Shown here: piece after piece, positions 20,976 through 44,282 of the stretch | How the letters are laid out: the number at the start of each line of letters is the position of its first letter | Position numbering within the stretch: position 1 is the first letter of the stretch | Notes under the pieces: model-generated | What the model saw: only the letters and a program-made list of their open reading frames with translations | The model's database searches: none | What the model was told of the DNA's origin: nothing | Position numbers and translations under genes: made by a program | NCBI GenBank assembly: GCA_017987975.1 | Contig: JAGNSQ010000004.1 | Location: 26,985-71,266, forward strand | Origin: Saprospiraceae bacterium | Lineage (GTDB): Bacteria; Bacteroidota; Bacteroidia; Chitinophagales; Saprospiraceae | Direction of reading: 5' to 3' | Length of the DNA: 44,282 nucleotides

Positions 20976-21236
20976 GATAGATGGTTGTTTAGATTTTGAA
21001 AAGTGTTTACAATTCGGTTTCCCGAAGGTCTTGTTGATTGACAAGATTTGCGCATATTGTCTTAACTCTTCCTTGACGCTTATGGTTAAAAAAATGTTAC
21101 AGGGCTTTTTGAAATTGTTTGCATTTTATCGACGAAATGCCGGTATTGGGGATAGTATGTCGGGAAAATAGAAGAAAAAATCCTGAGGTATTAATACTTA
21201 AAAGCTAAAATTATTCATGACCATCAAAGCCCTACA

Positions 21237-22941: not shown

Positions 22942-23001
22942 CGTACTGATGCCCTGATTACCGATTAACAATATTGTTAATATATTATTTTGCTCATTAC
23001 C

Positions 23002-26000
23002 ATGGGTCTACGCAGAGAACACTACAGCCTGATCAGGCAACTATTGCCTTTTTCTTTTTTATTCATCATTTTGGGTAATGCTAAAGCGCAATCAAACTGC
23101 ACGGTCAGGGTGGCAGAAGAACCTCTTCCTTTATCCACGCTGTCAAAGCCAACGAAGGCAGAACAGTTCACTTCTTTTTCTCAAAAGGAGTGGCAAGATA
23201 TTGGTAAAGCTTTGGTGGCAGATGATGCCCATGCCAAGGTTGTACTTAATGGACAGTTTTACAGCTCCACACTTAGGCTTTCTCAAACTGGAATAAATAT
23301 ACCTCAAGGAGCCACCATCCATGGTATCAAAGTAAATGTGGAAGGAAAGCGACAAGGAGAAGGAACTTTAAAAGAATTTGGTATTCGGCTGGTATCCGGA
23401 AGTACGGTATCTGCAAATATGGCGGGCAAGGCTTACAATGCTATGAATGCGTGGGCAAAAAGCAGCGTTGACAAAAAGTGGAGCTACGGATATACTGATT
23501 ATCTATGGGGCGTCAATTGGACACCGGCAATGGTAAATGATCCAACATTTGGTATTGAGATTCAACTTATCAATTTTTCAACCCAAAGTGTTGAGGCAAA
23601 TATAGATGCAGTAACCATAGAAATAAGTTATACCCCACTTGCTACTTTCTGCCTAACGGATGTGTTTTCGGTGTATGTAGATCAAAGACCTGATGGATGC
23701 AAATACATGTGGAAAGTGCCGGAGGGCTTTGAGTGGACATCTAAAAGTACAAATAACTACATCGTTGATTTTAAAGCTTCCTATGCCCAGCCCGGCATTT
23801 ATCCGTTTTGTGTTGACATATATGGTTATCAAAACGAATACCTGGGTAGTTGCTGCAGAGACATACGCATTCGCAATTGTACTCCGTCTACCCTCGGCAA
23901 TTTTGTTTGGAATGACATCAATTACAATGGCCTCCAGGAAAATGGCGAACCTGGTATCAAAGATGTAAAAGTTGAATTGTACAACAGCGACAACCTATTG
24001 GTGCAATCCGTAATAACCAATGCTGCCGGACAATACCTGTTTACTAATATTACAGAAGGCAATTACTATGTAATAGTGCGACTGCCCTCTGACTATCTAA
24101 CCACGATTAGCAACTCAGGTGATCCACTGAATAACAGTGACTTTATCAGTGGCAATAATCGATCAGAAACCCTATTTCTGCCATTTGGCAGCAACAGGAC
24201 CGATCTCGATTTTGGCCTTGTTAAAAAATTGAAGATAGGTGATTTTGTTTGGGAAGATCTTAACTACAATGGCATCCAGGACAGTGGAGAACCTGGTATT
24301 GCCAATGTAACGGTAAAGCTTTACAACGCAGCCGGCATCCTGGTACAAAGTGTGGTAAGTGATGCCGGAGGAAAATATTCATTTGACAATGTACCCGCAG
24401 CTCAGTATGAATTGGAATTTGTGGCCGGCACATCCTATTTACCCACCAGGTTGCAGCAAGGCAATACGGTTTCAGATAGTGACATCCAAATCAATGGCAG
24501 AACCGGACTGATCAATTTTCAAAACACTTCCAGCCAGCTTACTATTGATGCCGGATTTTATCGCCTAGGATCGATCGGTGATTTTGTGTGGAATGACCTC
24601 AACAATGACGGCATACAATCTCCACAAGAACCTGGCACACCAGATCTGACACTCTACCTTTTAAATGATTTGGGTCAGGTTATTGACACAACTATCACCA
24701 ATGCAGGTGGTCAGTATCTTTTTGATTCTCTGGTCCCGGGACAATACAGTGTTAAGATAATTTTACCGCCGTTTACAGAACCCACCCAGCTCCTTACAGG
24801 TACTGGTACTTCGAAGTTGGAAACGGTAAATGGCATGTTTGTTTCGCAGGCAGTTACCCTAAGCTCTAATCAGAATGTGAGTGACAATGACCTTGGCTAT
24901 ATTGAAATCAACAGTGCTGTGGGAGGTTATGTGTTTCGCGATTTCAACAACAATGGAGCTAGAGACAATAACGAGCCTGGTATTCCTGCTATAGAAGTAA
25001 CCCTTATTCGTGGAAATCTTCAAGTAGTAAGTACGATTACTACAGATGCTGATGGATTCTATCAATTTGATAACCTGCAACAGGGAGGATATTTTATTTC
25101 CTGTTCTATTGCTGACAGTTTACAATATACAGATGCTGACGTTGGCACCGATGATATAGATTCAGATATCCAGGATCGCATAGGCATTGGCTTTACCAAT
25201 CTCATTGATTTGCTGGCGGGAGATTCATTGACCAACGTTTATGCAGGAGTATGCAGGCGTAGCTGTATCGGAGACCGGGTGTGGAGAGATGCTGATTACA
25301 ATGGTATCCAGGACACAGGAGAGCCCGGCATAGAAGGTATAGTGGTAACCTTAAACGATGAATCCGGCATTGCCCTGAATCAAACTACGACCGATGCAGA
25401 TGGCAGGTACAAATTTGATAAACTTCCAGTGGGCCAGTATCAAATCCTGGTATCCATACCTCAGGGATCAATAGCAACAAGAATCCAACAAGGAACACCA
25501 ACACTCGACAGCGACATCAACCCTGATGGGCTGGCTACTGATTTAGTGTTGCCTTTGGGCATTGATAATAAGGATGTCGATGCGGGACTTACCTTGTCTT
25601 TAGAGTTGGGAGATTTTGTCTGGGAGGATCTGAATTACAATGGCCTCCAGGATGCCGGAGAACCGGGTATCGAAGGCGTGGCGGTAAGAGCAGTGGATGC
25701 TTCAGGAAACTTGCTGGCAGAAACCCTTACTGGAGCAGATGGAAAATACCTTTTGAGTGGGCTCCCCTCTATTGATATAGAAATGACTTTTGAGGTGGCT
25801 GCACCCTATAGTGCTACCCAATCGATATTAACAGATCCCTCCACCAACAGTGATATCAACAATGCAGGTTCCACAGGATTGCTTTTACTAACCGGACAGA
25901 ACAGCAATCTGGACATAGATGCAGGCATGTATGTAGAAAGTTGTATTGGTGATTTTATCTGGTTGGATCAAAATGGCGATGGAAAACAGGATGCAGGCGA

Positions 26001-29000
26001 TGCAGGGCTGAAGGATGTCATGGTAGTGTTGTATAATGAAGCTGGTGTGCAACAGCAAATTTTTATCAGCGATGAAACCGGCCAATATGAATTTTGTGGG
26101 TTGGAGCCGGGAAATTATTATCTGACCACTCAACCCATTAGAGGATATTTTCCAACACTTGAAGGCGCAGGTTCTATATTAAAAGACATGGGTAATGGAG
26201 AATTCAGAACTGAGCTATTTACTCTCATTTCGGGTGACAACCTAATGGACCTGGATCTGGGCTTTGAGTACAAACCCCAATCCAAGTTATGCGGCATTGT
26301 GTTTGCAGATGAAAATGCAGATGGAAGGTATACCCTCAATGAAACCGGCATAGCCAATGTTATTATAGAATTGCAGGACCAAAACTTTATTCCTCTTTCT
26401 CAAACTACAACAGCTTTAGATGGCAAATATTGTTTTGACGATGTTTTGCCGGGAGAATATACCATCAAATTTTTTATTGGAGACAGTCTTCAATTTACAG
26501 ACGCAAATGTTGGCAGTGAAGATGCAGACAGCGACGCCTTGGGTACCACCGATATTGGATTAACCCAGGTTGTAACGGTTCAGGCGGCCACCGATATCAA
26601 CGATGTTTATGCAGGTATAACTTATCGGTCATCCATCGCTGGTTTTGCCTGGTTTGATTTTGCCAAAGATGGATTGCGGGGAGTAACAGAGCCCGGTATT
26701 CCAAACATTTCTGTTGAATTATTGGATGAAGCAGGATTAAGCCTTGCATCTACCACCACAGGAACAGATCCAACGGGATATTACAGCTTCGACAAACTGC
26801 CAAGGGGCAATTATAAAATCAAGTTTCAAACCAATCCCAATTTTGATTTTACGATCAAAGGTGTAGATCCCATTATTGGCTCGTATGCCAATGCAGATGG
26901 AATTACAGATGTATTGACCGCCTTGCCCAACGAAGATTTACTCACCATCAACGGTGGCTTTGCTTTTAAAGGAGGAGGTATAGAAGGTGTTGCCTGGAAA
27001 GATTTGAATAAAAATAAAGAGAGGGATCAAGATGATGACGTTTTACCATTGGTGAATGTATATCTCTATGACGGACTGGGACAATTGATAAAGACTACAC
27101 AAACTGACTTTACCGGCAGCTATTCCTTTTTTCCGGTCAATAGCGGTTTGTATTATGTAGTCTTTGACACCTTCCCTGAATTGACATTTGTAATGCCGGA
27201 TCCTTTGTTTTTAAATTCAGATGTTACCCATGAAAACGGAAGAGGTAGCACCCATTACATAACAGTAAACAATGGCGCTATCGAAGCTGGCATTGATGCC
27301 GGATACTACGATATAAGATCATACCTCAGCGGTACTGCCTGGGAGGACAGAGATGGCGATGGAGCTCTTGCAGCAACTGACACCGTATTAAGAGACATAA
27401 AAGTGATATTGTGGTCAAATGGAGTCGCCGTAGACAGCACCCTTACTGATGAAAACGGACTGTATATATTTGGTCCTTTGCTACCTGGAAAGTTTGTTGT
27501 TCAATATGCAAACACGGATAGTAATTATACCATCACCTACCTGCAAGTTGCGGGACTGGATACCTTAATAGATAGCGACATCAATGCAGATGGCTTTACA
27601 GATACCATTTTGGTGGGAGAATGTTTGGTGATTGGAGGTATCAACGGAGGGTACCGGGGCTTTGGAAAAATGCAAGGAGAAGGCTTTGTGGATGAAAATG
27701 AAAACGGACTCAATGACGATGCCATAGAAGCATTGAATGACATCCAGGTAAGTCTGATTGATCAATTTGACAACGTGGTAGCCAGTGATACCACCAGAGA
27801 AATAAATGGCGAACAGGGAAGATTTGCCTTTGACAAGATTCCTGTAGGCGATTACAAGATGAGGGTTAAAAGACCTTTGTTTTATGTTTTCACTTTTCAG
27901 AACGCAGGGGGTGGAAGTCAGGAAGACATAGACTCTGATGTACTATTGAGTTCAAATACCTATGCATTTTCAGATGCAATAGCCATACGAAAAGATCAAA
28001 CTGTAGACAACCAGGACTTTGGCCTGGTTTTCAGAACACCAGCCATTTCATCGATCAGAGGTCAGGTGTGGACAGAAAACATCATAGATGGCCAGCGCAT
28101 AGTGGGAGAACTACCGGTGGAAGGTATGACCATGGGTTTATACAAAAGCGACGACAGTCTTGTAAAACAAACAACAACAGATGCTGAGGGTAAATATATT
28201 TTTGATCAGTTGATTGAAGGTTTTTATTACGTTAAAGCAGAATTGGCTGCCGGAATGACCTACACATTTTATAAAGAGGGCAGTGACTTTACCATAGATT
28301 CAGACTTTAGCGATGGATATCGACAAGATGCAACCCTGCTCTTTTATTTAGGCATATCTGCTGATACCCTTGCCGTTGATTTGGGTGTGACTAATGAATT
28401 GCGGGTAGGCGATTTTGTTTGGGATGATCTCAATGATAACGGTCTTCAGGATGCACAGGAACCAGGCATGACAGGTGTAAAAGTATCGGTAGTACGCAAT
28501 GACAATAAAATAATAAAAACTACCACCACTGATGCAACGGGCATGTACCAGATGGTGCGCATTCCTGCCGGCAATTATCGCATGGTATTTGATCTGCCAA
28601 CGGGTTATAGCAGCGCCAAAAAACAAGCCGGTGGTTCGGCCATTGACAGTGATATCAATGAAGATGGTCGAAGCGATTTGTTTTTCTTTCCGGCACCTGC
28701 TTCACGAAATGACCTGGATGCGGGATTTGTGAAAAATGGAAGCATTGGTGATTTTGTATGGATAGATTTTAACGCTAATGGCATTCAAAACAGTGGAGAG
28801 CCAGGAAAGGATAGTGTAGTTATCAACCTTTATAATGATGCCGGGCAATTGGTGAAAACCACCCAAAGTTTTACCAATGTTGCATCCGGAGTACAGGGGC
28901 AGTATCTATTTACCAATGTTAGACCGGGATCTTATTTTCTTGAATTTATAACTCCAGCGCAATACCAGGTGGTACCACAGGATATAGGTGACGATGAGTT

Positions 29001-29712
29001 GGATTCTGATATTGATGGAGCTGGAGTAACACCGGCTGTAACTGTCTTACCAGGTCAAGTAATCAATCACGTAGATGCCGGTATTTTCTTGCCTGGTTGT
29101 ATAGGCAATTTTGTTTGGTTGGACGAAAACAAAAACGGTATTCAGGACATCGGAGAGCCAGGTGTATTTGATGTAGTAGTCCATCTGTTTAAATCCAACG
29201 GCAGCCTGGTTGCAACAGGATCTACCAATGAAGAAGGATTTTACCAGTTTAATGATCTGGCACAGGGGCTTTATTATACACAGTTTATTATAGAAACGCC
29301 CTATGTTTTCACTATAATAGACCAGGGCGATGAAACCACAGATTCTGATGCCGATGCCAATGGTTTGACCCCTTTGATATCATTGGCCCATGGTGCCAAA
29401 TTTTTTGATCTGGATGCAGGGGTCTTTATTCCCACCCAGTTGATTCAAAACACAGAGCCACAAGCTGATTTAGAGGAAGATCCTTCCTTGATAATAACGC
29501 CCAATCCGGCCAACTTCCAAACCACTTTGGTAACGCCGGAGGCTGGTAGAAAAATGACCCTGTTGGATCAGACAGGTAAGACTATCAAGACCTGGCTGTC
29601 AGTTGCTAAACAAGAAGTATTGGATCTGAGAGATTTGCAGGCCGGAATCTATTTTGTAGTCATGGAGAGTGAGGGAGGCAGGATTCAGCAACAGCTTATT
29701 AAAATGGATTAA
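23002..29712 (+). CDS. Giant SdrD B-like repeat surface protein with T9SS tail
   Basis: 2236 residues from the ATG at 23002; a TTG at 22990 would add only MLIT. A signal peptide (about 1-30, ending NAKAQ) is followed by an N-terminal beta-rich region of about 270 residues with GINIPQGATIHGIKVNV and VTIEISYT, as in other Bacteroidota surface proteins. Then come 16 repeats of about 115 residues (23893-29432), each opening with a form of IGDFVWxDxNxNGxQDxGEPGI and ending near D(I)DAG. This is the SdrD B-like (Cna-B/prealbumin-like) fold with Ca-binding D/N loops. The C terminus (ITPNPANFQTTLV to the end) is a T9SS type A sorting domain. It probably forms a long stalk-like adhesin. Copies in the middle (about 8-13) are more degenerate. 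Confidence 0.88.
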   Translation: MGLRREHYSLIRQLLPFSFLFIILGNAKAQSNCTVRVAEEPLPLSTLSKPTKAEQFTSFSQKEWQDIGKALVADDAHAKVVLNGQFYSSTLRLSQTGINIPQGATIHGIKVNVEGKRQGEGTLKEFGIRLVSGSTVSANMAGKAYNAMNAWAKSSVDKKWSYGYTDYLWGVNWTPAMVNDPTFGIEIQLINFSTQSVEANIDAVTIEISYTPLATFCLTDVFSVYVDQRPDGCKYMWKVPEGFEWTSKSTNNYIVDFKASYAQPGIYPFCVDIYGYQNEYLGSCCRDIRIRNCTPSTLGNFVWNDINYNGLQENGEPGIKDVKVELYNSDNLLVQSVITNAAGQYLFTNITEGNYYVIVRLPSDYLTTISNSGDPLNNSDFISGNNRSETLFLPFGSNRTDLDFGLVKKLKIGDFVWEDLNYNGIQDSGEPGIANVTVKLYNAAGILVQSVVSDAGGKYSFDNVPAAQYELEFVAGTSYLPTRLQQGNTVSDSDIQINGRTGLINFQNTSSQLTIDAGFYRLGSIGDFVWNDLNNDGIQSPQEPGTPDLTLYLLNDLGQVIDTTITNAGGQYLFDSLVPGQYSVKIILPPFTEPTQLLTGTGTSKLETVNGMFVSQAVTLSSNQNVSDNDLGYIEINSAVGGYVFRDFNNNGARDNNEPGIPAIEVTLIRGNLQVVSTITTDADGFYQFDNLQQGGYFISCSIADSLQYTDADVGTDDIDSDIQDRIGIGFTNLIDLLAGDSLTNVYAGVCRRSCIGDRVWRDADYNGIQDTGEPGIEGIVVTLNDESGIALNQTTTDADGRYKFDKLPVGQYQILVSIPQGSIATRIQQGTPTLDSDINPDGLATDLVLPLGIDNKDVDAGLTLSLELGDFVWEDLNYNGLQDAGEPGIEGVAVRAVDASGNLLAETLTGADGKYLLSGLPSIDIEMTFEVAAPYSATQSILTDPSTNSDINNAGSTGLLLLTGQNSNLDIDAGMYVESCIGDFIWLDQNGDGKQDAGDAGLKDVMVVLYNEAGVQQQIFISDETGQYEFCGLEPGNYYLTTQPIRGYFPTLEGAGSILKDMGNGEFRTELFTLISGDNLMDLDLGFEYKPQSKLCGIVFADENADGRYTLNETGIANVIIELQDQNFIPLSQTTTALDGKYCFDDVLPGEYTIKFFIGDSLQFTDANVGSEDADSDALGTTDIGLTQVVTVQAATDINDVYAGITYRSSIAGFAWFDFAKDGLRGVTEPGIPNISVELLDEAGLSLASTTTGTDPTGYYSFDKLPRGNYKIKFQTNPNFDFTIKGVDPIIGSYANADGITDVLTALPNEDLLTINGGFAFKGGGIEGVAWKDLNKNKERDQDDDVLPLVNVYLYDGLGQLIKTTQTDFTGSYSFFPVNSGLYYVVFDTFPELTFVMPDPLFLNSDVTHENGRGSTHYITVNNGAIEAGIDAGYYDIRSYLSGTAWEDRDGDGALAATDTVLRDIKVILWSNGVAVDSTLTDENGLYIFGPLLPGKFVVQYANTDSNYTITYLQVAGLDTLIDSDINADGFTDTILVGECLVIGGINGGYRGFGKMQGEGFVDENENGLNDDAIEALNDIQVSLIDQFDNVVASDTTREINGEQGRFAFDKIPVGDYKMRVKRPLFYVFTFQNAGGGSQEDIDSDVLLSSNTYAFSDAIAIRKDQTVDNQDFGLVFRTPAISSIRGQVWTENIIDGQRIVGELPVEGMTMGLYKSDDSLVKQTTTDAEGKYIFDQLIEGFYYVKAELAAGMTYTFYKEGSDFTIDSDFSDGYRQDATLLFYLGISADTLAVDLGVTNELRVGDFVWDDLNDNGLQDAQEPGMTGVKVSVVRNDNKIIKTTTTDATGMYQMVRIPAGNYRMVFDLPTGYSSAKKQAGGSAIDSDINEDGRSDLFFFPAPASRNDLDAGFVKNGSIGDFVWIDFNANGIQNSGEPGKDSVVINLYNDAGQLVKTTQSFTNVASGVQGQYLFTNVRPGSYFLEFITPAQYQVVPQDIGDDELDSDIDGAGVTPAVTVLPGQVINHVDAGIFLPGCIGNFVWLDENKNGIQDIGEPGVFDVVVHLFKSNGSLVATGSTNEEGFYQFNDLAQGLYYTQFIIETPYVFTIIDQGDETTDSDADANGLTPLISLAHGAKFFDLDAGVFIPTQLIQNTEPQADLEEDPSLIITPNPANFQTTLVTPEAGRKMTLLDQTGKTIKTWLSVAKQEVLDLRDLQAGIYFVVMESEGGRIQQQLIKMD
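23893..29432 (+). repeat. Sixteen tandem SdrD B-like domain repeats
   Basis: Sixteen copies, about 340 bp each, counted by the opening pattern (G)(D/N)xVWxDxNxxGxxxxxEPGI. Copies 1-6 and 14-16 keep the pattern closely; copies 7-13 vary. DNA identity between copies is limited, so these are old protein-level repeats, not recent DNA duplications. Confidence 0.8.
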
Positions 29713-32421: not shown

Positions 32422-33048
32422 TTATTGGAGCCTGTAGATTTCCATAATTTTTGACAAAATTTTTGAGAAATCGATATTTAAGTCTACTAATTTTCCAGAA
32501 TGAACATCAAAAATCCAGCCATGGACCAACAGGCCCCATTCTTTATGAGCTTTTTGCACAGAAGCTGTTTTGATGAGATTGATGCATTGTTCCTGCACAT
32601 TCAGTTCGATTAATCGGTTGTAGCGATCATCTTCGTTGATATAGGTGTTGAGTTCATCCTGGTACGTGCGGTAAACATCTCTTATGTTTCTGAGCCACGG
32701 ATTCAGAATGCCCATGTCCTTGCTTTGCATGGCGGCTTTGACTCCTCCGCAATGATAGTGGCCACAAACGATGACGTGTTTTACCTTAAGGTGGTCTATG
32801 GCATAGTTGATTACCGACATGGCGTTGAGGTCGATGCTTACCACCATATTGGCAATGTTGCGGTGGACAAAAATTTCACCCGGCACCAGGCCCATGATTT
32901 CTTCTGCTGTTACCCTACTATCCGAACAGCCAATATAAAGGTATTCCGGGTTTTGTCCTTTAGAAAGTTTATCAAAATAGAAGGGGTCTTCGGCAATCCT
33001 GTCCTGGACCCATTTTTCATTGTTTTCAAATATTTTTGAAAGGTGCAT
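32422..33048 (-). CDS. can: Beta-class carbonic anhydrase
   Basis: 208 residues, cytosolic. Zinc ligands C41, D43, H97 and C100 and the D43-R45 dyad are present in YIGCSDSRV and CGHYHCGG, matching E. coli Can. VHRNIANMV and the later CINLIKTASV also fit. It converts CO2 and water to bicarbonate. It lies 11 bp after the bestrophin-like gene, on the same strand; a channel of that family could carry the bicarbonate across the membrane, so the pair may act in bicarbonate or pH handling. Confidence 0.94.
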   Translation of the reverse strand: MHLSKIFENNEKWVQDRIAEDPFYFDKLSKGQNPEYLYIGCSDSRVTAEEIMGLVPGEIFVHRNIANMVVSIDLNAMSVINYAIDHLKVKHVIVCGHYHCGGVKAAMQSKDMGILNPWLRNIRDVYRTYQDELNTYINEDDRYNRLIELNVQEQCINLIKTASVQKAHKEWGLLVHGWIFDVHSGKLVDLNIDFSKILSKIMEIYRLQ

Positions 33049-33059
33049 ATGAGTGGTTT

Positions 33060-34082
33060 TTATAGTAAAATATTGTTGACTGGCTTGATAGGATCTGGTA
33101 TTTCTTCATAATTGAACATCTCTTTGAGGTCAATTTCTATTCCCCTTGCCATAGCAGTGATCGGCACATCGTTGGCACTGCCTTCAAATGGGCTTTCGGT
33201 GACTTCGCCTATTTTTTCTAGGGTGGTAAAGAGCCAGGCTGAGAGGATAGAAAAAGGAATGTTGAGCCAGATCAGGTTGTCGCCCAGCTTATCAAATTCC
33301 TGCAGCATGCCGAAGGGAATCAACACAACGAAGGCCTTGATAAAATAGAGATTAAGGGTAGCAAACTGGCGGGGATAGGGAAAGTTTTTAATTCTTTCAG
33401 AAGCACCTTGTTGGTTGTACAATTCAACAATGATTCTTTCCATTTCCATATGTCGAAAATCCTCGATGTAGCCGAGTTCGAGCAGTTGTTTGAGATGGCT
33501 AGATTGAAGGGCCAGAATCTGGGCTGCCTTATTGGTTTTTTTACTTACCAGGGTGCATTCTTCATCCACAACAAATGGGGCGATGGCTTCATCAATGGGT
33601 ACAGAATGTTCGTCGACCGAATAAGTGCGATTCCGGTATTCGATGTTGTGGACCTGGTGGCGTGATTCCCATACTCTGGGTTCTCTAAGCTGGTACCGTA
33701 GAGCTGTCAGCCAGGCTATATGCCGGTCAATCAATCGGCGTTTTACCATTGACAATTCCTCATCGTTGAGGCTTGTAGTGGCATGGCGATTGGTAACATA
33801 GTCCTGAACCATGATGCCCCAACTTCTGCTGGCATTGACGATAGCACCCCAGATGCGACGGGCTTCCCAAAGGCGGTCGTAAGACGCATTGTTTTTAAAA
33901 CCTACTACAAAGGCAACGGCAGTACCCATTAGGGCTATGGGCAACCAGGGTATGGCAATCCACCGGCAGTTTAAAAAATGATAGATAGAGGTAGCCACAA
34001 AAGCAACCACAAAATGGAAGTATATATCTCTACGGGTCCACAGAATGACCTCTTTGAGCGAATAGTTTTTAGCGGTGTGCAT
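33060..34082 (-). CDS. Bestrophin-family anion channel (UPF0187)
   Basis: 340 residues. Bestrophin motifs are clear: NNASYDRLWEARRIWGAIVNASRSW near 62-86, a first membrane pair near 24-60 (IYHFLNCRWIAIPWLPIALMGTAVAFVVGF) and a second near 240-290 (LNLYFIKAFVVLIPFGMLQEF, NIPFSILSAWLFTTLE), followed by the conserved PFEGSANDVPI segment. Bacterial bestrophins form pentameric ion channels. Bacterial homologues vary in ion selectivity, so chloride or bicarbonate passage is inferred. The gene heads a minus-strand operon with carbonic anhydrase and starts across a 306-bp divergent region from the cytochrome operon. Confidence 0.9.
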   Translation of the reverse strand: MHTAKNYSLKEVILWTRRDIYFHFVVAFVATSIYHFLNCRWIAIPWLPIALMGTAVAFVVGFKNNASYDRLWEARRIWGAIVNASRSWGIMVQDYVTNRHATTSLNDEELSMVKRRLIDRHIAWLTALRYQLREPRVWESRHQVHNIEYRNRTYSVDEHSVPIDEAIAPFVVDEECTLVSKKTNKAAQILALQSSHLKQLLELGYIEDFRHMEMERIIVELYNQQGASERIKNFPYPRQFATLNLYFIKAFVVLIPFGMLQEFDKLGDNLIWLNIPFSILSAWLFTTLEKIGEVTESPFEGSANDVPITAMARGIEIDLKEMFNYEEIPDPIKPVNNILL

Positions 34083-34836: not shown

Positions 34837-35697
34837 ATGAATAAAACCGCACATAGCATTTACCTTGCTACGTTAACGCTCATAGTAATAGCAGTAACTA
34901 TTTATCTGTTTTACTATGGCGCCTCGTATTACAATACCAGTATGGAAGAGCGTTTCTACCATACTGACCATGGTGACCTAAAGCCAAGCGGAGTTTATGG
35001 CCATGGTTTAGGTATTATAGGTACCCTGCTCATTTTGATCGGAGTGTTTGGATACATGGCGCGTAAGAGGTATCGTATATTATCCAGGATTGGGGTGCTA
35101 AAACATTGGTTGGAGTTTCATATCTTTTTGTGTACACTGGGTCCTATTATGATTCTTTTCCATACCTCCTTTAAGTTTGGTGGCATTGTGTCAATAAGTT
35201 TTTGGAGCATGGTGGCTGTTGTTGCGAGTGGTGTAATAGGCAGGTTTATATATTTGCAGATTCCCCGCACCATCCAGGGTAGAGAATTGAGTATTGCAGA
35301 GATTGGTGAAATGCAGGAAGATATTGCCTATCGCGTGAGAGAAGAAGCAGGTGAGCATTCAGACGAAGTATTGCAAGCATGGCACGACGTAATTCAGGAA
35401 AGAAAAAATCAGGGCAATCCCGGATTTCTAAAAACCTACATGAGGGACTATCAACTCAAATCACATTTTGCCAATCAGTTGAAGTCCTGGAATATATCTA
35501 CCCGTAACAATCGTATCATTACAGGATTGATATCTACAGAATTGGGCATACAGCGAAAAATTGAAAGACTCATGTTGATGCAAAAATTGTTTAGGTACTG
35601 GCACATTGCCCACCTGCCTTTTGCCCTCATCATGCTTATCATTATGGTCATCCATGTAGGCGTGACCCTTGCTTTTGGCTATAAATGGATCTTTTAA
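34837..35697 (+). CDS. Probable di-haem membrane cytochrome b
   Basis: 286 residues with about five membrane helices (approximately 8-27, 56-74, 92-110, 118-140, 256-280) and a charged loop (about 145-250). Helix 3 has H95 and H109, and helix 5 has H259 and H273; each pair is exactly 14 residues apart, the spacing by which cytochrome b-type proteins hold two stacked haem b groups between two helices. H56 and H90 are extra candidates. No c-type motif is present. It ends 1 bp before the Fe-S flavoprotein gene. The likely role is to pass electrons across the inner membrane between the cytosolic or membrane flavoprotein and the exported multihaem cytochromes. No precise family name is claimed; the di-haem assignment is inferred from spacing and context. 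Confidence 0.7.
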   Translation: MNKTAHSIYLATLTLIVIAVTIYLFYYGASYYNTSMEERFYHTDHGDLKPSGVYGHGLGIIGTLLILIGVFGYMARKRYRILSRIGVLKHWLEFHIFLCTLGPIMILFHTSFKFGGIVSISFWSMVAVVASGVIGRFIYLQIPRTIQGRELSIAEIGEMQEDIAYRVREEAGEHSDEVLQAWHDVIQERKNQGNPGFLKTYMRDYQLKSHFANQLKSWNISTRNNRIITGLISTELGIQRKIERLMLMQKLFRYWHIAHLPFALIMLIIMVIHVGVTLAFGYKWIF

Positions 35698-35698
35698 C

Positions 35699-37036
35699 AT
35701 GGGCTGGTCAATAGAAGAAATAGGAATTTATGCTGTGGCTGCACTAATGTGTGGGCTCATTCTTATGATTTATTTGCGCAAGCTGAAAAATGAATCAAAA
35801 GAGGTTGGCGTTAAAATTGAAAAAGCCATAGCGGAGGGAGTTCATGAGCCGGTATCGCTGCATCCTTACATCGATTTGAATACCTGTATCAAGAGCGGTG
35901 CCTGCATTATTGCTTGCCCGGAACATGATATTCTGGGTATTCGTAATGGTAGGGCCACCCTGATCAATGCCTCCAAATGTGTAGGTCATGGAGCATGCTT
36001 TCACGCCTGCCCGGTAGAAGCCATTTCGCTCAGAATAGGCACAGAGAAGCGGGGAGTTGATTTGCCACACGTCAATCAGAATTTTGAAACCAATGTTCAG
36101 GGTATTTTTATCGCCGGCGAATTGGGAGGCATGGGCCTGATTAAAAACAGTGTGGAGCAAGGTAAACAAGCGGCCGATGAGATTAAAAAATCAACTGAAA
36201 AAAATCATGGTGCCACCTACGATTTGGTAATTGTGGGAGCTGGTCCGGCGGGCATCTCCGCTTCGGTTCAAGCCAAGTTAAACGGACTGAAGGCAGTAGT
36301 TTTAGAACAGGATAGTTTGGGTGGAACAGTTTTTAATTTTCCACGGGCAAAGGTTGTGATGACCAATCCGATGGACCTTCCGGGCCATGGTAAGGTTAAA
36401 TTATTTGAGACCAGTAAGACCGAATTGCTCACCCTTTGGAATGATGTGATTCACAAACACAACATTGAAGTTAGAGAGCAATCTAAAGTAGAGGCCATTT
36501 CCAAAAGAGACCACAACTTTGTTGTAACTACCCACGATGGAGAACAGTTTCATACCCACAAAGTATTGCTTGCCATAGGAAGGCGAGGTACACCCCGCAA
36601 GCTGGGAGTGCCAGGTGAACAAATGGAAAAAGTAGCTTACCGTTTGCTGGAACCTGAGCTCATCCAAGGTAAAAATGTATTGGTAGTTGGCGGGGGAGAT
36701 TCGGCAATAGAAAGCGCTATCTTATTAGCCCAGGGCAATAAGGTTACCCTATCTTATCGAAGTGAAAAATTCAGTCGTTTAAAACCCAAAAACGAAATCA
36801 GCATACAGAATGCGATCAAAACCCAGTTGTTGGAGGTAGCTTTTAATTCCAACGTATTAAATATAGAAAATGACCACGTGATGATGACGGGTTCTGAGGG
36901 AGAATTCAAACTTGCCAACGACCTGGTCTATATCTTTGCGGGGGGTGAATTGCCCACTCAGTTTTTGCAGAAATCTGGAATTGAAATACAAAAACGTTTT
37001 GGATACACCGTAAAATCGCACAAAAGAGTAGGATGA
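35699..37036 (+). CDS. Membrane-anchored Fe-S/FAD/NAD(P) oxidoreductase
   Basis: 445 residues from the ATG at 35699; a longer frame to 35669 overlaps the previous gene and was rejected. One N-terminal helix (about 9-27) anchors the protein. Residues about 55-110 form a ferredoxin-like domain with two cluster motifs, C63-x5-C69-x3-C73-P and C94-x5-C100-x3-C104-P; the usual second cysteines are S66 and H97. Residues 120-162 (VNQNFETNVQGIFIAGELGG) resemble the GIFAAGD-type FAD segment that normally ends thioredoxin-reductase-like proteins. The FAD motif G180AGPAG and the NAD(P) motif VVGGGDSAIESA (about 329-340) follow. No redox CxxC is present in the flavin domain. It probably takes electrons from NAD(P)H and feeds the neighbouring cytochromes, or the reverse. 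It overlaps the next gene by 4 bp. Confidence 0.82.
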   Translation: MGWSIEEIGIYAVAALMCGLILMIYLRKLKNESKEVGVKIEKAIAEGVHEPVSLHPYIDLNTCIKSGACIIACPEHDILGIRNGRATLINASKCVGHGACFHACPVEAISLRIGTEKRGVDLPHVNQNFETNVQGIFIAGELGGMGLIKNSVEQGKQAADEIKKSTEKNHGATYDLVIVGAGPAGISASVQAKLNGLKAVVLEQDSLGGTVFNFPRAKVVMTNPMDLPGHGKVKLFETSKTELLTLWNDVIHKHNIEVREQSKVEAISKRDHNFVVTTHDGEQFHTHKVLLAIGRRGTPRKLGVPGEQMEKVAYRLLEPELIQGKNVLVVGGGDSAIESAILLAQGNKVTLSYRSEKFSRLKPKNEISIQNAIKTQLLEVAFNSNVLNIENDHVMMTGSEGEFKLANDLVYIFAGGELPTQFLQKSGIEIQKRFGYTVKSHKRVG

Positions 37037-38880
37037 TAATCGGGTATAACATAACGAAGCTACTGCAGTCAGCAATGATGACCCTCCTGGTCCTTTGCTC
37101 TGGTGCTGCATGGGCGCAGTTATCACCCGGTAAATTGACAAAAGCGCATTCAAAACTGGAAGGGCTGGCCAATTGTACGCAGTGCCACACTATTGGTGCA
37201 AAAATATCCGAGCAAAAATGTCTTGACTGTCATAAAGAATTGAAAGGCCGAATTTCTTCCAAAAAGGGATATCACGTTTCATCAGCTGTTAAAGGAAAAG
37301 AATGCATTACCTGTCACAGTGAACACCATGGGCTCAACTTTGACATGGTGAGGTTTGATAAAAAGACCTTTGACCATAAGCTTACCGGCTATGAGCTCAA
37401 AGGAGGGCACAAAATTTCTGATTGTGCAAAGTGTCATAAACCAGATAATATAGCCTCTGCAACCCTCAAAAAAAAGCCGGAAACTTTTCTGGGCCTGGAA
37501 ACCAAGTGCATGAGTTGCCATGAAGATTATCACCAAAAAACAATGTCTTCGGATTGTGCTTCATGCCACAATTTTACCAAGTTTAAACCTGCGAGTCTAT
37601 TTAATCATGCCAAAACAGAATTCCCTTTGCTGGGCGCGCACAAGACAGTTGATTGTGCCTCATGCCACAAAGTAGAAATGCGCAATGGCAAGGAGTTTCA
37701 AAAATTTGCAGTGGCCTCATTTAAAAATTGTAGCAATTGCCACAACGATGTACATAAAGGTGAATTTGGCACTCAATGTAAGGCGTGCCACAATGAAGAA
37801 TCTTTTCATAAAATAACGGCAGGTCCCGGCTTCAATCATAATGTTACAGGATTTACCCTGGTAGGCAGGCACCAAAAGATAGATTGTAAAGCCTGCCATG
37901 AGAAAAGTTTTGGCTTGGGAGGGCATTTTAAAGAGTTTAAGAGCAAAGACGCCAATGATTGTCGCACCTGCCACAAAGATGTGCATGAAGACAAATTTGG
38001 AAGCAAATGTCTTGATTGCCATAATCAGAACTCATTTAAGTCAGGCAAAACACCCCAATTAGATAATTTTGATCACAGTTCTACCGGTTTTGCCTTATTA
38101 GGCAAACACCAGAAAGTGGATTGTCGTACCTGTCATAAACAAGATCTGACCACACCCATGGCCCATGATCAATGTGCATCATGTCACAAAGATCACCATG
38201 AAGGCGATTTTGCAACTAAAAAAGATCGCTATCCTGATTGTGCCAGCTGCCACAACGAACAAGGCTTTATGCCCTCTACATTTACCATTGAGCAGCATGA
38301 GAAGAGCAGCTTTGTGTTAAATGGTGCACACTTAGCAACTCCTTGTAACGCTTGTCACTGGAAAGAAAATAAGTGGGAATTTAACATCCCCCAGCAAGAA
38401 TGTAAATCATGCCATGAAGACATCCATAAAAATTATATGGATGAAAAATATTATGGCCAAAATTCTTGTAAAACCTGTCACAATACAGATTCATGGCTGG
38501 CCGGCAATTTTGACCATAGCCTCACTGACTGGGCTCTGGAAGGTAAACATGCTACCATCAGTTGCGGACAATGCCACATGGATACAAAAACAGGTACAAG
38601 GATACAGCGCTTTAGGGATTTAGATGGCGAATGCGTTACCTGTCATGATAATATACACGGCACCCAGTTTGAAGTAGAAGGTAAAACAGATTGCAGCCGG
38701 TGCCACGGCTTCAAAGAATGGAAGGCCGATAAGTTTGATCATAATCTCACTCAGTTTAAATTAGAAGGAGAACATAAGGTCGTAGCCTGTATAAAATGTC
38801 ATAAAGAAACAATGGTTGAAGGCAAAAAAACTGTCAATTATAAAATAGAAAAATTTGCATGCGTAGACTGCCATCAATAA
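37033..38880 (+). CDS. Exported 23-haem cytochrome c
   Basis: 615 residues. The signal peptide ends GAAWAQ (about 29), so haem would be attached in the periplasm. I count 23 CxxCH motifs. Most sit in a repeating three-haem block: CxxCH, about 20 residues, F(D/N)HxxTxFxLxGxHxxxDCxxCH, about 15 residues, then CxxCH often followed by DxH. The extra histidines in FNH and GxH are likely axial ligands. No lipobox is seen. It should act as a periplasmic or surface electron carrier. The start overlaps the flavoprotein stop (ATGA) and its own end overlaps the next gene by 22 bp, so translation of all these genes is probably coupled. Confidence 0.92.
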   Translation: MIIGYNITKLLQSAMMTLLVLCSGAAWAQLSPGKLTKAHSKLEGLANCTQCHTIGAKISEQKCLDCHKELKGRISSKKGYHVSSAVKGKECITCHSEHHGLNFDMVRFDKKTFDHKLTGYELKGGHKISDCAKCHKPDNIASATLKKKPETFLGLETKCMSCHEDYHQKTMSSDCASCHNFTKFKPASLFNHAKTEFPLLGAHKTVDCASCHKVEMRNGKEFQKFAVASFKNCSNCHNDVHKGEFGTQCKACHNEESFHKITAGPGFNHNVTGFTLVGRHQKIDCKACHEKSFGLGGHFKEFKSKDANDCRTCHKDVHEDKFGSKCLDCHNQNSFKSGKTPQLDNFDHSSTGFALLGKHQKVDCRTCHKQDLTTPMAHDQCASCHKDHHEGDFATKKDRYPDCASCHNEQGFMPSTFTIEQHEKSSFVLNGAHLATPCNACHWKENKWEFNIPQQECKSCHEDIHKNYMDEKYYGQNSCKTCHNTDSWLAGNFDHSLTDWALEGKHATISCGQCHMDTKTGTRIQRFRDLDGECVTCHDNIHGTQFEVEGKTDCSRCHGFKEWKADKFDHNLTQFKLEGEHKVVACIKCHKETMVEGKKTVNYKIEKFACVDCHQ

Positions 38881-41800
38881 TATATATTTTGATGGTGCTG
38901 GTGATCCAGTTATCAGCACAAACGTCACCCCATGGCGCTGGCTTTGCTATGGATTGTGCCAAGTGTCACAGTCCGGAAAGCTGGACATACTCCAACAAAG
39001 CTCAATTTTCTCATGACAGCACAGGGTTTTCTCTTACAGGTCAACATCGCGATCTGGAATGTAAGTCATGTCATACCAGTCTTGAATTTAATAAAATTGA
39101 TAATGCCTGTATTTCTTGTCATACAGATGTACACCAACAAACAGTAGGCAATGATTGCGCTCGCTGTCACACAGCGGATTCCTGGTTAGTAGACAATGTT
39201 ACACAACTCCATGAAAGGACTTCTTTTCCACTAATGGGTGTACATGCTACCGTTAATTGTAATGCATGTCATGATACAGAAACCAATATGCGTTTTGCAC
39301 CAACTGGCATGGACTGTATATCCTGTCACCGGGCGGACTATGTGGCAACAAAGCAGCCGGATCACGTTAAGTTTGGATTTTCAACCGATTGCGCATCTTG
39401 TCATAGTTTGACCATAACCGATTGGAATACCGACAAAGTAGATCACACTTTCTTTCCGCTGGAAAAAGGCCACGCCATTGATGATTGTGTCAAGTGCCAT
39501 CAGAGCGGTGATTACTCTACGGCTGTAGCTGATTGTTTTAGCTGCCATGAAAATGATTATATGGCTACTATCAATCCCAATCACAGCGTTCTCGCCTTTG
39601 GCACGGATTGTAGACAATGCCATGATTTAACACCAGGATGGAAACCTGTAGATTACCGGGAACACGATGCCAAATATTTCCCTATTTATTCAGGCAAACA
39701 CCAGGGTACCTGGGAAACATGTGCTTCGTGCCACACAGACCCCAATAATTATGCTTCATTTTCATGTGTAATTTGTCACAAAGATCCGGAGACCAGCAAT
39801 TTACACCAATTGGTATCCGGGTATACTTACCAGGACAATGCCTGTCTTGCTTGTCACCCTACCGGTGATGCTGACATGGCCTTCAACCATGATGCCACCC
39901 AATTTCCATTGACAGGGGCTCACAAGATTTTGGATTGTATTGCCTGCCATGCCAACGGATATGCAGGTACACCCATTGAGTGTAAGTCTTGCCACCTTGA
40001 GAACTTTACATCGACCTCTGACCCTGACCACCAGGCCTTGAACTTATCTGAAGATTGTAAGGCGTGTCATAGCACCGAACCCGGTTGGGCCCCTGCCCGA
40101 TTTGATGTGCACGATGACTATTATCCTTTGTTGGGTACACACGCTGCAGTAGCCAATGATTGTGCTCTGTGTCACAACGGCAGTTACAACAATACACCCA
40201 ATAATTGCGCCGGCTGTCATATAGACGATTACAATACTACTACAGACCCTAACCACAAGTTGAGTCAGATTTCTCAGGACTGTGCTTCCTGCCACGGACA
40301 AGCAGCCTGGCAGCCATCCACTTTTAATCACGATGGCATGTATTTTCCAATCTACTCAGGGAAACACAACGGTGTGTGGATGCAGTGTACCGAATGCCAC
40401 AAAAATCCTTCCAACTATACAGAATTTACCTGTGTCAGTTGTCACCAGAATCCGGAGACCAATGATCTTCATACCGGGGTGAGTGGCTATAATTACAATG
40501 ACAATGCTTGTCTTGCCTGCCACCCAACAGGTGATGCCGAAAATGCTTTTGATCACAATAGTACTCAGTTTCCGTTGACCGGAGCCCACACAACTGTAGA
40601 TTGTATCAGTTGTCACGCTGGTGGTTTTGAAGGTACATCTACCCTGTGTGTTGATTGTCATCAATTGGATTTTAATGGCACTACCAACCCTAACCATGCG
40701 GGTCTTGGTTTTGCAACAGATTGCAAGCAATGCCATACGACCAATCCGGGATGGGCACCTGCAACGATGCCTAATCACAACGATTACTATGTTTTAAACG
40801 GAGCGCATGCCGGCATTGCCAATGACTGTGCGGCGTGTCATAATGGAAATTACAATACAACACCCAATACCTGTGCTGGCTGTCATCAAGCGGATTATAA
40901 TGCAACCACAGATCCCAACCATGCCCAGGCTCTTTTTCCCAATGACTGCGCTTCATGCCATTCTGAAACTGCATGGCAACCTTCCACTTTTAATCACGAT
41001 GGGCAATACTTCCCTATTTATAGTGGTAAACACCAGGGCACTTGGATGCAGTGTACTGAGTGCCACACCAATCCGGCTAATTATGCAGAATTTACCTGTG
41101 TGACCTGTCATCAAAACCCGGAAACCAATGATCAACACAATGGTATACCCGGTTATATTTATCAATCCAATGCTTGTTTGGCTTGCCACCCTACCGGTGA
41201 TGCAGCTTTAGTATTTGACCACAATACCACTCAGTTTCCATTAACAGGGGCTCACACTACGGTAGATTGTATTAGCTGTCATGCCAATGGCTTCCAGGGA
41301 ACATCGACTGCTTGTATGGATTGTCACCTCACCGATTTTAATGCCACAGTAAATCCAAACCACGTTGCTCTTGGCATACCAACTGATTGTGCTCAATGCC
41401 ATACAACAGCTCCAGGTTGGACGCCTGCCAGTTTTGATATTCACAACCAGTATTATCCTTTGAATGGTGCCCATGCCACAATTGCCAATGATTGTGCTAC
41501 TTGCCACAATGGCAATTATAACAATACACCCAATACCTGTGCTGCTTGTCACAATGATGATTATGTGGCAACCACCAATCCGAATCACGTGGCGGCCCAA
41601 TTTCCCAATGATTGTGCTTCATGTCACAGTGAACAAAATTGGGTGCCATCTACCTTTAATCACGATGGCCAGTATTTTCCAATTTACAGTGGAAGCCACA
41701 ATGGCCAATGGACACAATGTATAGATTGTCACAGTAATCCTGCCAATTATGCGCAGGTAGTGTGTATTACCTGTCACCAAAATCCGGAGACCAATGATCA

Positions 41801-44282
41801 ACACCAAACCGTAGGAGGTTATGTGTATACCAATGCAGCTTGTTTGGCATGTCACCCTACCGGTGAGGCCAACGGCATGTCATTTAACCATAACACTACT
41901 GCCTTCCCGTTGACAGGAGGCCATATGGGTGTAGACTGTATTCAGTGTCATGCCAGCGGTTATCAAGGTACTACAACAGTTTGTGTAGATTGCCACATGG
42001 ATAACTTCACGGCGAGTGTAGAACCCAACCACGTGGCACTCAACATCCCTACCGATTGTACCATGTGTCACACCACCACACCTGGTTGGGCACCGGCTAC
42101 CTTCCCGATTCACAATCAATATTACCCATTGAATGGGGCTCACGCTACTATCGCCAATGATTGTGCTTCTTGTCACAGTGCGGGATACAACAATACACCT
42201 AATACCTGTAACGGATGCCACAATGCCAACTATGTAGCTACTACCAATCCCAACCATGCGACGGCTCAATTTCCTACGTATTGTGCATCTTGTCACAATG
42301 AAAATACCTGGATGCCGGCTACTTTTGACCACGATGGCTTGTATTTCCCCATTTACAGCGGAAGTCACAATGGACAATGGACACAGTGCATCGATTGCCA
42401 TAACAATACTGCTAACTATGCCCAGGTGGTTTGCATCACCTGTCACCAAAATCCGGAGACCAATGATCAGCACCAAACCGTGGGAGGTTATGTATATACG
42501 AATGCTGCTTGTCTGGCATGTCACCCCACAGGTGAGGCCAATGGCATGTCTTTTAACCATAACACTACTGCCTTCCCATTAACAGGAGGCCACATCGGAG
42601 TAGACTGTATCCAGTGTCATGCCAGCGGTTATCAGGGGACTACAACTGTTTGTGTGGATTGTCACATGGATAATTTTACAGCCAGTGTAGAACCCAATCA
42701 CGTAGCCTTAAATATGCCTACCGATTGTGCCATGTGTCACACTACCACACCTGGTTGGGCACCGGCTACTTTCCCGATACACGATAATTATTATGCACTG
42801 ACCGGAGTACATGCAGCCATTGCCAATGATTGTGCACAGTGTCACAGCAGTGGATACAGCAATACGCCAAATGAATGCAATGGTTGTCACAATGCTAATT
42901 TTACAGCAGCAGTAAACCCCAACCACATTGCCTTGGGTCTTTCAACAGATTGCGCAAGCTGTCATACCACAGCCCCTGGTTGGGCTCCTGCAACATTTGC
43001 CGTCCACGATGATTATTATCCATTGAATGGTGCCCATGCTGCCATCGCCACTGATTGCGCTGAGTGTCATAATGGAAACTACACCAATACGCCAAATACT
43101 TGCAATGGTTGCCACAATAGTGAATACCAGGCTACCACCAATCCGAATCACGTAACAGCCAACTTCCCCACTGATTGCGCTGCCTGCCACAATGAAAACA
43201 ACTGGACACCGGCCACCTTCAACCACGATGGCTTGTACTTCCCAATATACAGTGGTGAGCACCAGGGGGAATGGACATCCTGCACTGATTGCCACACCAA
43301 CCCCAACAATTATGCGGTTTTCACTTGTCTGACTTGTCACACCAACCCTGAAACCAATGACGAACACGAAGATGTAGGCGGATATGTTTACAATAGCCCA
43401 GCTTGTTTGGCTTGTCACCCACAAGGAGAATCGAGCCCTTCCTCTTTTAATCACAATGCCACTGCCTTCCCTATTACAGGAGCGCACCAGGGCTTGAGTT
43501 GTGTAGAATGCCACTCAGCAGGTTATCAGGGAACATCAACAGCTTGCGTTTCATGCCATAATACGGAGTTTCAGGGTGCAGTTGAACCCAATCACCTAGC
43601 CTTAAATTTCCCTACGGATTGTGCTATGTGTCATACCACAGCCCCTGGTTGGGCGCCTGCTACCTTCCCCATTCATAGTAATTATTATGAATTGACAGGG
43701 GCACACGCCGGTATTGCCAACGATTGTGCTTTATGCCATACCGCTGGATACAGCAATACACCCAATACTTGCAATGGATGCCATAACGACAATTATGTCG
43801 CAGCAGCTAATCCGAATCACGTGGCTCTTGGCTTGTCAACAGATTGTGCTTCATGCCATACGACAGCCGCAGGTTGGTCGCCCGCCACTTTTGCTGTACA
43901 CAACAATTATTATCCACTGACTGGAGCGCATGCATCGATAGCAAATGATTGTGAGCAATGCCATGCGGGAGGTAATTATAGCAATACACCCAATACATGC
44001 AATGGATGTCACAACGCTAATTATGTAGCAGCAGCGAATCCGAATCACGTGGCTCTTGGCTTGTCAACCAATTGTGCAACATGCCATACTACATCACCTG
44101 GCTGGTCACCTGCCACTTTTGCTGTTCATAATACTTATTATCCATTGACAGGAGCCCATGCTTCCATAGCGAGTGATTGTGAGGAGTGCCATGCAGGAGG
44201 TAATTATAACAATACACCCAATACGTGCAATGGATGTCACAACGCTAATTATGTAGCAGCAGCGAATCCGAATCACGTGGCT
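38859..44282 (+). CDS. Giant multihaem cytochrome c with at least 72 haem sites (3'-partial)
   Basis: The frame opens at the ATG at 38859 and has no stop to the window end: 1808 codons, incomplete. The first 21 residues (MRRLPSIIYILMVLVIQLSAQ) are a clear signal peptide, fixing the start inside the end of the 23-haem gene. I translated the frame and counted 72 CxxCH motifs, forming 24 consecutive three-haem blocks: CxxCH, then W-x-P-x-x-F-x-H and GxH, then CxxCH, then CxxCH. The first 12 sites form a less regular N-terminal part. After that the blocks cycle in groups of three to give a 9-haem super-repeat of about 222 residues, and later a single block type expands in tandem. Histidines in FNHDG, GxH and NPNH are probable axial ligands. 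Likely a periplasmic or surface electron wire. Shorter ORFs on both strands here are shadows. Confidence 0.93.
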   Translation, partial: MRRLPSIIYILMVLVIQLSAQTSPHGAGFAMDCAKCHSPESWTYSNKAQFSHDSTGFSLTGQHRDLECKSCHTSLEFNKIDNACISCHTDVHQQTVGNDCARCHTADSWLVDNVTQLHERTSFPLMGVHATVNCNACHDTETNMRFAPTGMDCISCHRADYVATKQPDHVKFGFSTDCASCHSLTITDWNTDKVDHTFFPLEKGHAIDDCVKCHQSGDYSTAVADCFSCHENDYMATINPNHSVLAFGTDCRQCHDLTPGWKPVDYREHDAKYFPIYSGKHQGTWETCASCHTDPNNYASFSCVICHKDPETSNLHQLVSGYTYQDNACLACHPTGDADMAFNHDATQFPLTGAHKILDCIACHANGYAGTPIECKSCHLENFTSTSDPDHQALNLSEDCKACHSTEPGWAPARFDVHDDYYPLLGTHAAVANDCALCHNGSYNNTPNNCAGCHIDDYNTTTDPNHKLSQISQDCASCHGQAAWQPSTFNHDGMYFPIYSGKHNGVWMQCTECHKNPSNYTEFTCVSCHQNPETNDLHTGVSGYNYNDNACLACHPTGDAENAFDHNSTQFPLTGAHTTVDCISCHAGGFEGTSTLCVDCHQLDFNGTTNPNHAGLGFATDCKQCHTTNPGWAPATMPNHNDYYVLNGAHAGIANDCAACHNGNYNTTPNTCAGCHQADYNATTDPNHAQALFPNDCASCHSETAWQPSTFNHDGQYFPIYSGKHQGTWMQCTECHTNPANYAEFTCVTCHQNPETNDQHNGIPGYIYQSNACLACHPTGDAALVFDHNTTQFPLTGAHTTVDCISCHANGFQGTSTACMDCHLTDFNATVNPNHVALGIPTDCAQCHTTAPGWTPASFDIHNQYYPLNGAHATIANDCATCHNGNYNNTPNTCAACHNDDYVATTNPNHVAAQFPNDCASCHSEQNWVPSTFNHDGQYFPIYSGSHNGQWTQCIDCHSNPANYAQVVCITCHQNPETNDQHQTVGGYVYTNAACLACHPTGEANGMSFNHNTTAFPLTGGHMGVDCIQCHASGYQGTTTVCVDCHMDNFTASVEPNHVALNIPTDCTMCHTTTPGWAPATFPIHNQYYPLNGAHATIANDCASCHSAGYNNTPNTCNGCHNANYVATTNPNHATAQFPTYCASCHNENTWMPATFDHDGLYFPIYSGSHNGQWTQCIDCHNNTANYAQVVCITCHQNPETNDQHQTVGGYVYTNAACLACHPTGEANGMSFNHNTTAFPLTGGHIGVDCIQCHASGYQGTTTVCVDCHMDNFTASVEPNHVALNMPTDCAMCHTTTPGWAPATFPIHDNYYALTGVHAAIANDCAQCHSSGYSNTPNECNGCHNANFTAAVNPNHIALGLSTDCASCHTTAPGWAPATFAVHDDYYPLNGAHAAIATDCAECHNGNYTNTPNTCNGCHNSEYQATTNPNHVTANFPTDCAACHNENNWTPATFNHDGLYFPIYSGEHQGEWTSCTDCHTNPNNYAVFTCLTCHTNPETNDEHEDVGGYVYNSPACLACHPQGESSPSSFNHNATAFPITGAHQGLSCVECHSAGYQGTSTACVSCHNTEFQGAVEPNHLALNFPTDCAMCHTTAPGWAPATFPIHSNYYELTGAHAGIANDCALCHTAGYSNTPNTCNGCHNDNYVAAANPNHVALGLSTDCASCHTTAAGWSPATFAVHNNYYPLTGAHASIANDCEQCHAGGNYSNTPNTCNGCHNANYVAAANPNHVALGLSTNCATCHTTSPGWSPATFAVHNTYYPLTGAHASIASDCEECHAGGNYNNTPNTCNGCHNANYVAAANPNHVA
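39843..42509 (+). repeat. Nine-haem super-repeat, four successive copies
   Basis: Taking the cysteine codon of CLACHP(T/Q)G as the marker, copies start at 39843, 40509, 41175, 41841 and 42510. The first three spacings are exactly 666 bp (222 codons); the fourth is 669 bp because one residue is added after PTGEA. Each unit has nine CxxCH motifs in the same order. The copy at 41841 and the next at 42510 are the most alike, differing mainly at third codon positions. Confidence 0.9.
42726..43175 (+). repeat. Tandem pair of the TTxPGW three-haem block
   Basis: In the super-repeat starting at 42510 the block opening C(A)xCHTT(T/A)PGW occurs twice, at 42726 and 42951, exactly 225 bp (75 codons) apart. 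This lengthens that unit from 669 to 894 bp and from 9 to 12 haem sites. Confidence 0.85.
43620..44282 (+). repeat. Tandem run of the TTxPGW three-haem block, reaching the window end
   Basis: Block starts at 43620, 43845 and 44073 (225 and 228 bp apart). The last two copies share near-identical DNA: the 42 bases ending the window (44241-44282) recur 228 bp upstream. The run is still going at the edge, so its copy number is unknown. Confidence 0.85.

Follow-up and report, generated by a model that had tools for sequence, protein, structure and literature searches.

The question raised by this locus is whether the gene of a giant multihaem cytochrome has grown by in-frame copying of its own repeats and, if so, in which units, where and how recently. 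We analysed a stretch of 44,282 nucleotides (the window; G000:C2:26985-71266) from a Saprospiraceae genome of 246 contigs. The cytochrome gene (38859..44282, + strand) encodes a signal peptide, a core and an array of trihaem modules. Its open reading frame (38859-44282; 1,808 aa) has no stop codon and is truncated, since base 44282 is the final base of contig C2 (71,266 bp).

Giant cytochromes of Saprospiraceae are already known: as far as the available part of PMC11495043 goes, members of activated sludge encode proteins with very many CXXCH motifs, for which electron transfer or storage was suggested. In that part the motifs are counted and the proteins called undescribed, and module structure, operon and length evolution are absent. 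We liken the window gene to these giants by description (same organism family, very many CXXCH), which does not imply gene identity. Insertions and deletions of CXXCH-containing domains are likewise known, from large cytochromes of Burkholderiales (PMC7399161). Our analysis adds, as new points, an exact quantisation in three-haem steps across a family, the place of growth and an account of selection.

At the level of architecture, the gene starts with a conserved N-terminal part (38859..39485, +), comprising the signal peptide and the first seven haems, with a spacing that is constant in nearly all homologues (35/36-16-16-34-19-25-32 in most of them). Further on, the haem motifs repeat at 15-25-35 residues and form trihaem modules of ~75 aa each. 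Three modules (A-B-C) make a superunit of 222-223 aa, nine haems and 666/669 bp; superunits 1-3 (modules 3-11; nine haems each; 666, 666 and 669 nt; 39936..41936, +) are 1:1 orthologous to the nearest species. Blocks of 225/228 bp are additional B-type modules within the last two superunits.

The first-pass annotation of the DNA had described units at 41841 and 42510 and TTxPGW blocks at 42726/42951 (step 225) and 43620/43845/44073 (steps 225 and 228). All of these coordinates are exact and the steps were confirmed: C-L-A-C-H begins at each of the first two positions and C-x-x-C-H-T-T-x-P-G-W at the others, with TTAAGW in the copy at 43845. An independent repeat search returned direct-repeat families of 228-300 nt at spacings of 666, 669, 225 and 228, and a tandem array at 43752-44282 with period 228 and 88% matches. 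These repeats are far beyond chance.

The far end of the gene was recovered from a second contig of the same assembly. Contig C203 (25,175 bp, minus strand) is 100% identical to window positions 21475-44124 over 22,650 bp. Past 44124 it continues with exactly 100 N, followed by 127 bp identical to window 44156-44282 and a perfect duplicate of window 44055-44282 (228 bp). Beyond these, the array runs through diverged modules to its last module and the stop codon, after which comes the next gene (porin). Joined from C2 and C203, the completed gene encodes 82 CXXCH motifs plus 3k haems, and its count at the array end is a lower bound given the 100-N gap. The 127-bp piece looks like a single k=127 vertex of the assembly graph with two exits, either the same block again or the end of the array. 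On that reading there would be at least two exact tandem copies. The newest blocks are so alike that the assembly broke at this end of the gene. The first 1,093 bp of C203 match window 20381-21473 at 97% only, so the bin mixes at least two sequence variants; loci L010 and L012 on C203 record the redundant contig and the mixed variants in this bin.

Thus, the last block, previously given as at least tripled, is tripled as a minimum: the array is cut by the contig end, and with C203 the last superunit holds at least five such blocks.

For the 669-bp units, earlier taken as near-identical, the likeness is real over part of their length. The stretch at 41718..42130 (+) matches its second copy at 42387..42799 (+), 669 bp on, at 86.7% nucleotide identity over 429 nt, a likeness shared with other species. 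In register, the entire 669 bp reach 64% identity; an extra 225-bp block shifts the register, and the remainder of the unit aligns at +894. This block is module 16 (42831..43055, +), which is fixed in the genus: G002 (the nearest species, same genus) has an orthologue of 85% identity, and the block is present in G001 too. The 669-bp pair differs at 47 synonymous and 10 non-synonymous sites (dS 0.89, dN 0.030, dN/dS 0.034), and the gene up to module 19 differs from its G002 orthologue by dS 1.02, dN 0.029 and dN/dS 0.028. The age of the pair is therefore close to that of the split from G002, and the same units also occur in both other species that have a comparable gene.

These ages bear on a first alternative, namely that the number of modules was set long ago and has stayed fairly stable, and that neighbouring modules stay alike through gene conversion (concerted evolution) rather than through new duplications. 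The dS of the 669-bp pair, close to the species split, and the same superunits in two other species fit this view. So does the segment at 41868-42050, where the two copies of the window's genome are 80-90% alike and the first copy and its orthologue 75-87%, as expected from local conversion. The likeness of the 669-bp units looks like old duplication plus local gene conversion, to which the uneven similarity hints. However, conversion leaves length unchanged, and complete genes within this one genus hold 76 and 88 haems, with variation in other genera too. Gene conversion is refuted as the whole story by these length differences and is likely a second process; as a full account we consider it unlikely.

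The closest repeat in the window lies further downstream. Module 21 (43950..44177, +; 228 bp) and module 22 (44178..44282, +; truncated by the contig end) are 97.8% identical, with 3 synonymous and 2 non-synonymous differences. Next comes the exact 228-bp copy, at least one more copy of 44055-44282 being present in C203. Identity to the G002 orthologues is 82% for module 19, 83% for module 20 (43725..43949, +; the first of the extra blocks in the last superunit, paired with G002 module 20 in the tree) and 91% for the second-last module. With modules 21 and 22 near-identical and their flanks orthologous to G002, growth took place within the last superunit, between conserved neighbours.

In the IQ-TREE phylogeny, modules 21 and 22 form a supported pair found in the window's genome only, and window module 23 joins G002 module 25 weakly (86/67). 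Holding modules 21-23 together gave a p-AU of 0.38, which neither establishes nor rejects that grouping. A species-wise grouping of the inner modules obtained with FastTree was dropped, as IQ-TREE joins window module 23 to G002 module 25. Since IQ-TREE did not uphold that grouping, we limit the claim of lineage-specific copies to the pair of modules 21 and 22.

Judging from copy similarity, the active spot in the window is the 228-bp module at 43827-44282, with exact or near-exact copies, and the 669-bp units are older. The ongoing growth proposed at first sight thus holds, as recent growth, for single 228-bp modules at 43827-44282, and not for the 669-bp units.

Regarding selection, dN/dS was 0.08-0.10 over 88 module pairs with identity of at least 85%, so that neither these nor the 669-bp pair come anywhere near 1. 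Module pairs are under purifying selection, as the first-pass annotation had supposed.

To place this gene among its relatives, we compared one genome per species, so that all length differences are differences between species. Of the 398 family genomes searched, 88 carry the N-terminal part. Within the window's genus, G001 and G002 have complete genes of 76 and 88 haems, and the window gene has 82+3k; within other single genera the ranges are 58-73, 61-67, 67-73 and 82-94. Copy number differs between related genomes, and the change in whole three-haem steps that had been proposed is borne out among close relatives and across the family. In all 46 complete homologues, which are related genes and not 46 independent draws, the haem count is 1 mod 3 and ranges between 13 and 94, which amounts to 13+3n. 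Pairs of closest homologues are mostly 3 haems apart. Recent copies in other genomes have periods of 1-5 modules and identities up to 100%.

These copies are placed unevenly along the array. Among 33 complete giant genes, a sister module at least 85% identical was found for 88 of 514 interior modules and for 0 of the 66 modules in second- or third-last position, a count that rests on equal-length comparisons and leaves out the first and last modules, which have other lengths. As far as homologous sequences can tell, gene length is shown to evolve in whole modules: one or several modules are copied in tandem and in frame within the interior of the array, with the signal peptide, the N-terminal haems and the last modules staying orthologous.

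Emticicia oligotrophica DSM 17448 has the same operon on its plasmid pEMTOL02 (NC_018749.1, described as a complete sequence), the sole match in the plasmid collection. The giant cytochrome there has 40 haems, and two adjacent modules of its array are 97.3% identical. Including this copy, the 13+3n rule holds in 47 of 47 complete genes. At this locus (L124), the whole operon plus ccsA sits on the plasmid near ParA and replication genes; thus, the operon can be plasmid-borne.

Short paralogues with 13 haems (L122, L123, L084, L093, L099, L101 and others) have the same N-terminal spacing and lie beside or away from the giant gene, resembling a core to which no modules have been added. G001 has a second giant paralogue downstream of the first (L114, G001:C408, minus strand; L045:18442-21182), with adjacent modules 96% identical and a contig end that falls inside the array.

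Since these are metagenome bins, the recent copies and the differences in copy number could be artefacts of assembly. The growing end of the window gene coincides with a contig end, a 100-N gap and a second contig with a 97%-variant head: the window contig and C203 are each interrupted within the array, they share the piece that resembles a k=127 vertex, and the contig of the G001 paralogue likewise ends within its array. However, more than 30 complete giant reading frames without Ns all obey 13+3n, and the isolate plasmid, described as complete, both fits that rule and carries near-identical adjacent modules. Besides, assembly collapse could only understate copy number. We therefore regard an artefactual origin as very improbable.

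Taken together, the locus is very probably a modular haem wire whose length changes by whole trihaem modules and which serves electron conduction or storage. In the mechanism that we propose, the tandem copies in the interior of the array would arise by misaligned recombination or slippage between equivalent points of homologous modules. As recombination at equivalent points would add or remove an integer number of modules, the frame and the haem spacing would be kept automatically, giving 13+3n. Purifying selection keeps the modules intact. Array length would set the reach or capacity of the wire, and so could vary without loss of function.

It is quite possible, although we lean slightly against it, that module number also shifts within populations through recombination of the near-exact 228-bp modules, making wire length a quantised and rapidly evolving trait. 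If so, the cells of one strain would span a range of wire lengths, in electron reach or storage, open to selection.

At the functional level, sequence motifs and the neighbouring genes are the basis for assigning haem binding, redox role and location to the giant protein. An alignment of 47 six-module segments shows 18 invariant histidines outside the motifs for 18 CXXCH and no invariant methionine, so every haem is likely bis-His ligated. The completed protein has no cysteine outside CXXCH; its histidines beyond the motifs number 81, and a further one is expected within the gap. The protein is probably a single-chain haem wire, bis-His throughout. An AlphaFold model of a six-module segment, built with the 47 aligned segments, was too poor (pLDDT 61, pTM 0.31) for a fold search or for any claim on wire geometry. 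Searches of solved-structure sequences with the protein and its profile gave no credible relative.

The gene belongs to an operon of conserved order: membrane protein, FAD/4Fe-4S oxidoreductase, 23-haem cytochrome, giant cytochrome, and two further proteins, one of ~540 aa and one, lipoprotein-like, of ~250 aa. In the window, the membrane protein (34837..35697, +) is a putative b-type cytochrome with histidines in hydrophobic segments and no Pfam or NCBIfam match. The oxidoreductase (35669..37036, +) is a FAD/NAD(P) enzyme with a 4Fe-4S domain (Pfam families Pyr_redox_3 and Fer4), and the upstream cytochrome (37033..38880, +) has 23 haems in every complete homologue seen. The ~540-aa protein, downstream of the giant gene, also lacks a Pfam or NCBIfam match and is predicted by AlphaFold as a 22-strand barrel (pLDDT 79, pTM 0.60) resembling known barrels of the outer membrane (Z up to 19.5, rmsd 4.8, 332 aligned); the chains listed did not include MtrB, an absence that carries no weight. 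A CcsBA-like haem-attachment gene adjoins the operon in G002 and Emticicia. Together, the two cytochromes, the b-type-like membrane protein, the oxidoreductase and the barrel would conduct electrons across the envelope, store them, or both.

This is in line with the PCC3 porin-cytochrome complexes of Gallionellaceae (PMC10734462), to which similar Burkholderiales loci are known (PMC7399161). PCC3 combines two large multihaem cytochromes, one with 21-27 haems and a second that is variable, with a porin and an inner-membrane protein. The locus likewise has a large cytochrome of 23 haems beside a variable one, a conserved ~540-aa neighbour with its predicted 22-strand barrel, and a membrane protein. 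The likeness is one of features and haem counts. The PCC3 systems belong to another phylum, and their variable cytochrome has 10-49 haems against 13-94 here; the upstream protein here is constant at 23. No Bacteroidota version of PCC3 was found in the literature searched. By analogy, a PCC3-like electron conduit or a haem capacitor is the most likely role of the operon.

The second half of that statement is a reading of its own, in which the giant protein would serve chiefly as an electron reservoir in the periplasm and not as an extracellular wire, a longer array adding storage alone. The only signal found is the N-terminal signal peptide, and the last haem motif lies 7 residues before the chain end, leaving no room for a sorting domain past it; capacitor roles were proposed for GSU1996 of Geobacter (PMC10138318) and, in PMC11495043, for the Saprospiraceae giants. 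Against this stands the conserved neighbour, a predicted outer-membrane barrel as in porin-cytochrome complexes. We consider the reservoir possible but on balance doubtful; it is compatible with the same mode of growth.

The array also recalls the 'nanowires of hemes' GSU1996 and GSU2210 of Geobacter, with 12 or 27 haems (PMC10138318). As in GSU1996, one long many-haem chain is made of repeated three-haem domains, here with the 15-25-35 spacing and up to 94 haems. However, CXXCH spacing in c7 is 24 then 14 (PpcA Cys27/51/65), the opposite cyclic order, and GSU1996 has one His-Met haem per domain, unlike the ligand pattern above. The repeat protein as a whole passes the Pfam Cytochrome_C7 model, and none of the single-module Cytochrome_C7 matches listed in the genome search lies within the giant gene. 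The c7 nanowire profile TIGR04257 did not match the giant cytochrome (P0001) and scored 26.8 against a cut-off of 40 for the 23-haem protein. The giant protein may work like GSU1996-type nanowires, with membership in that family unsupported by spacing, TIGR04257 or ligation.

Other known systems are further away. The decahaem DmsE/MtrA family (TIGR03508) scored 62 bits against a cut-off of 192, and has ten haems against 82 or more. OmcS, OmcE and OmcZ are filaments of many small subunits, whereas this chain, known from its sequence, is already a long repeat protein. Multihaem cytochromes of Borgs have intragenic tandem repeats whose number varies in populations and which are hard to assemble (PMC11208441). 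Tandem repeats in cytochrome genes are common to both systems; the Borg repeats are said to confer disorder, whereas each repeat here is a haem-binding module.

The locus offers a simple rule (haems = 13+3n), a candidate frame-keeping mechanism and an array that grows in its middle between fixed ends. Wire length could be altered, and electron transfer or storage measured, in the deposited isolate E. oligotrophica DSM 17448, which carries pEMTOL02.

Elsewhere in the window, near the cytochrome operon, an ORF of 2,240 aa (22990-29712) contains many GDFVWEDLNYNGLQDAGEPG-type repeats resembling SdrD B-like repeats. A Bestrophin-like channel gene lies at 33060-34082, and the adjoining gene at 32422-33048 looks like one for a carbonic anhydrase.
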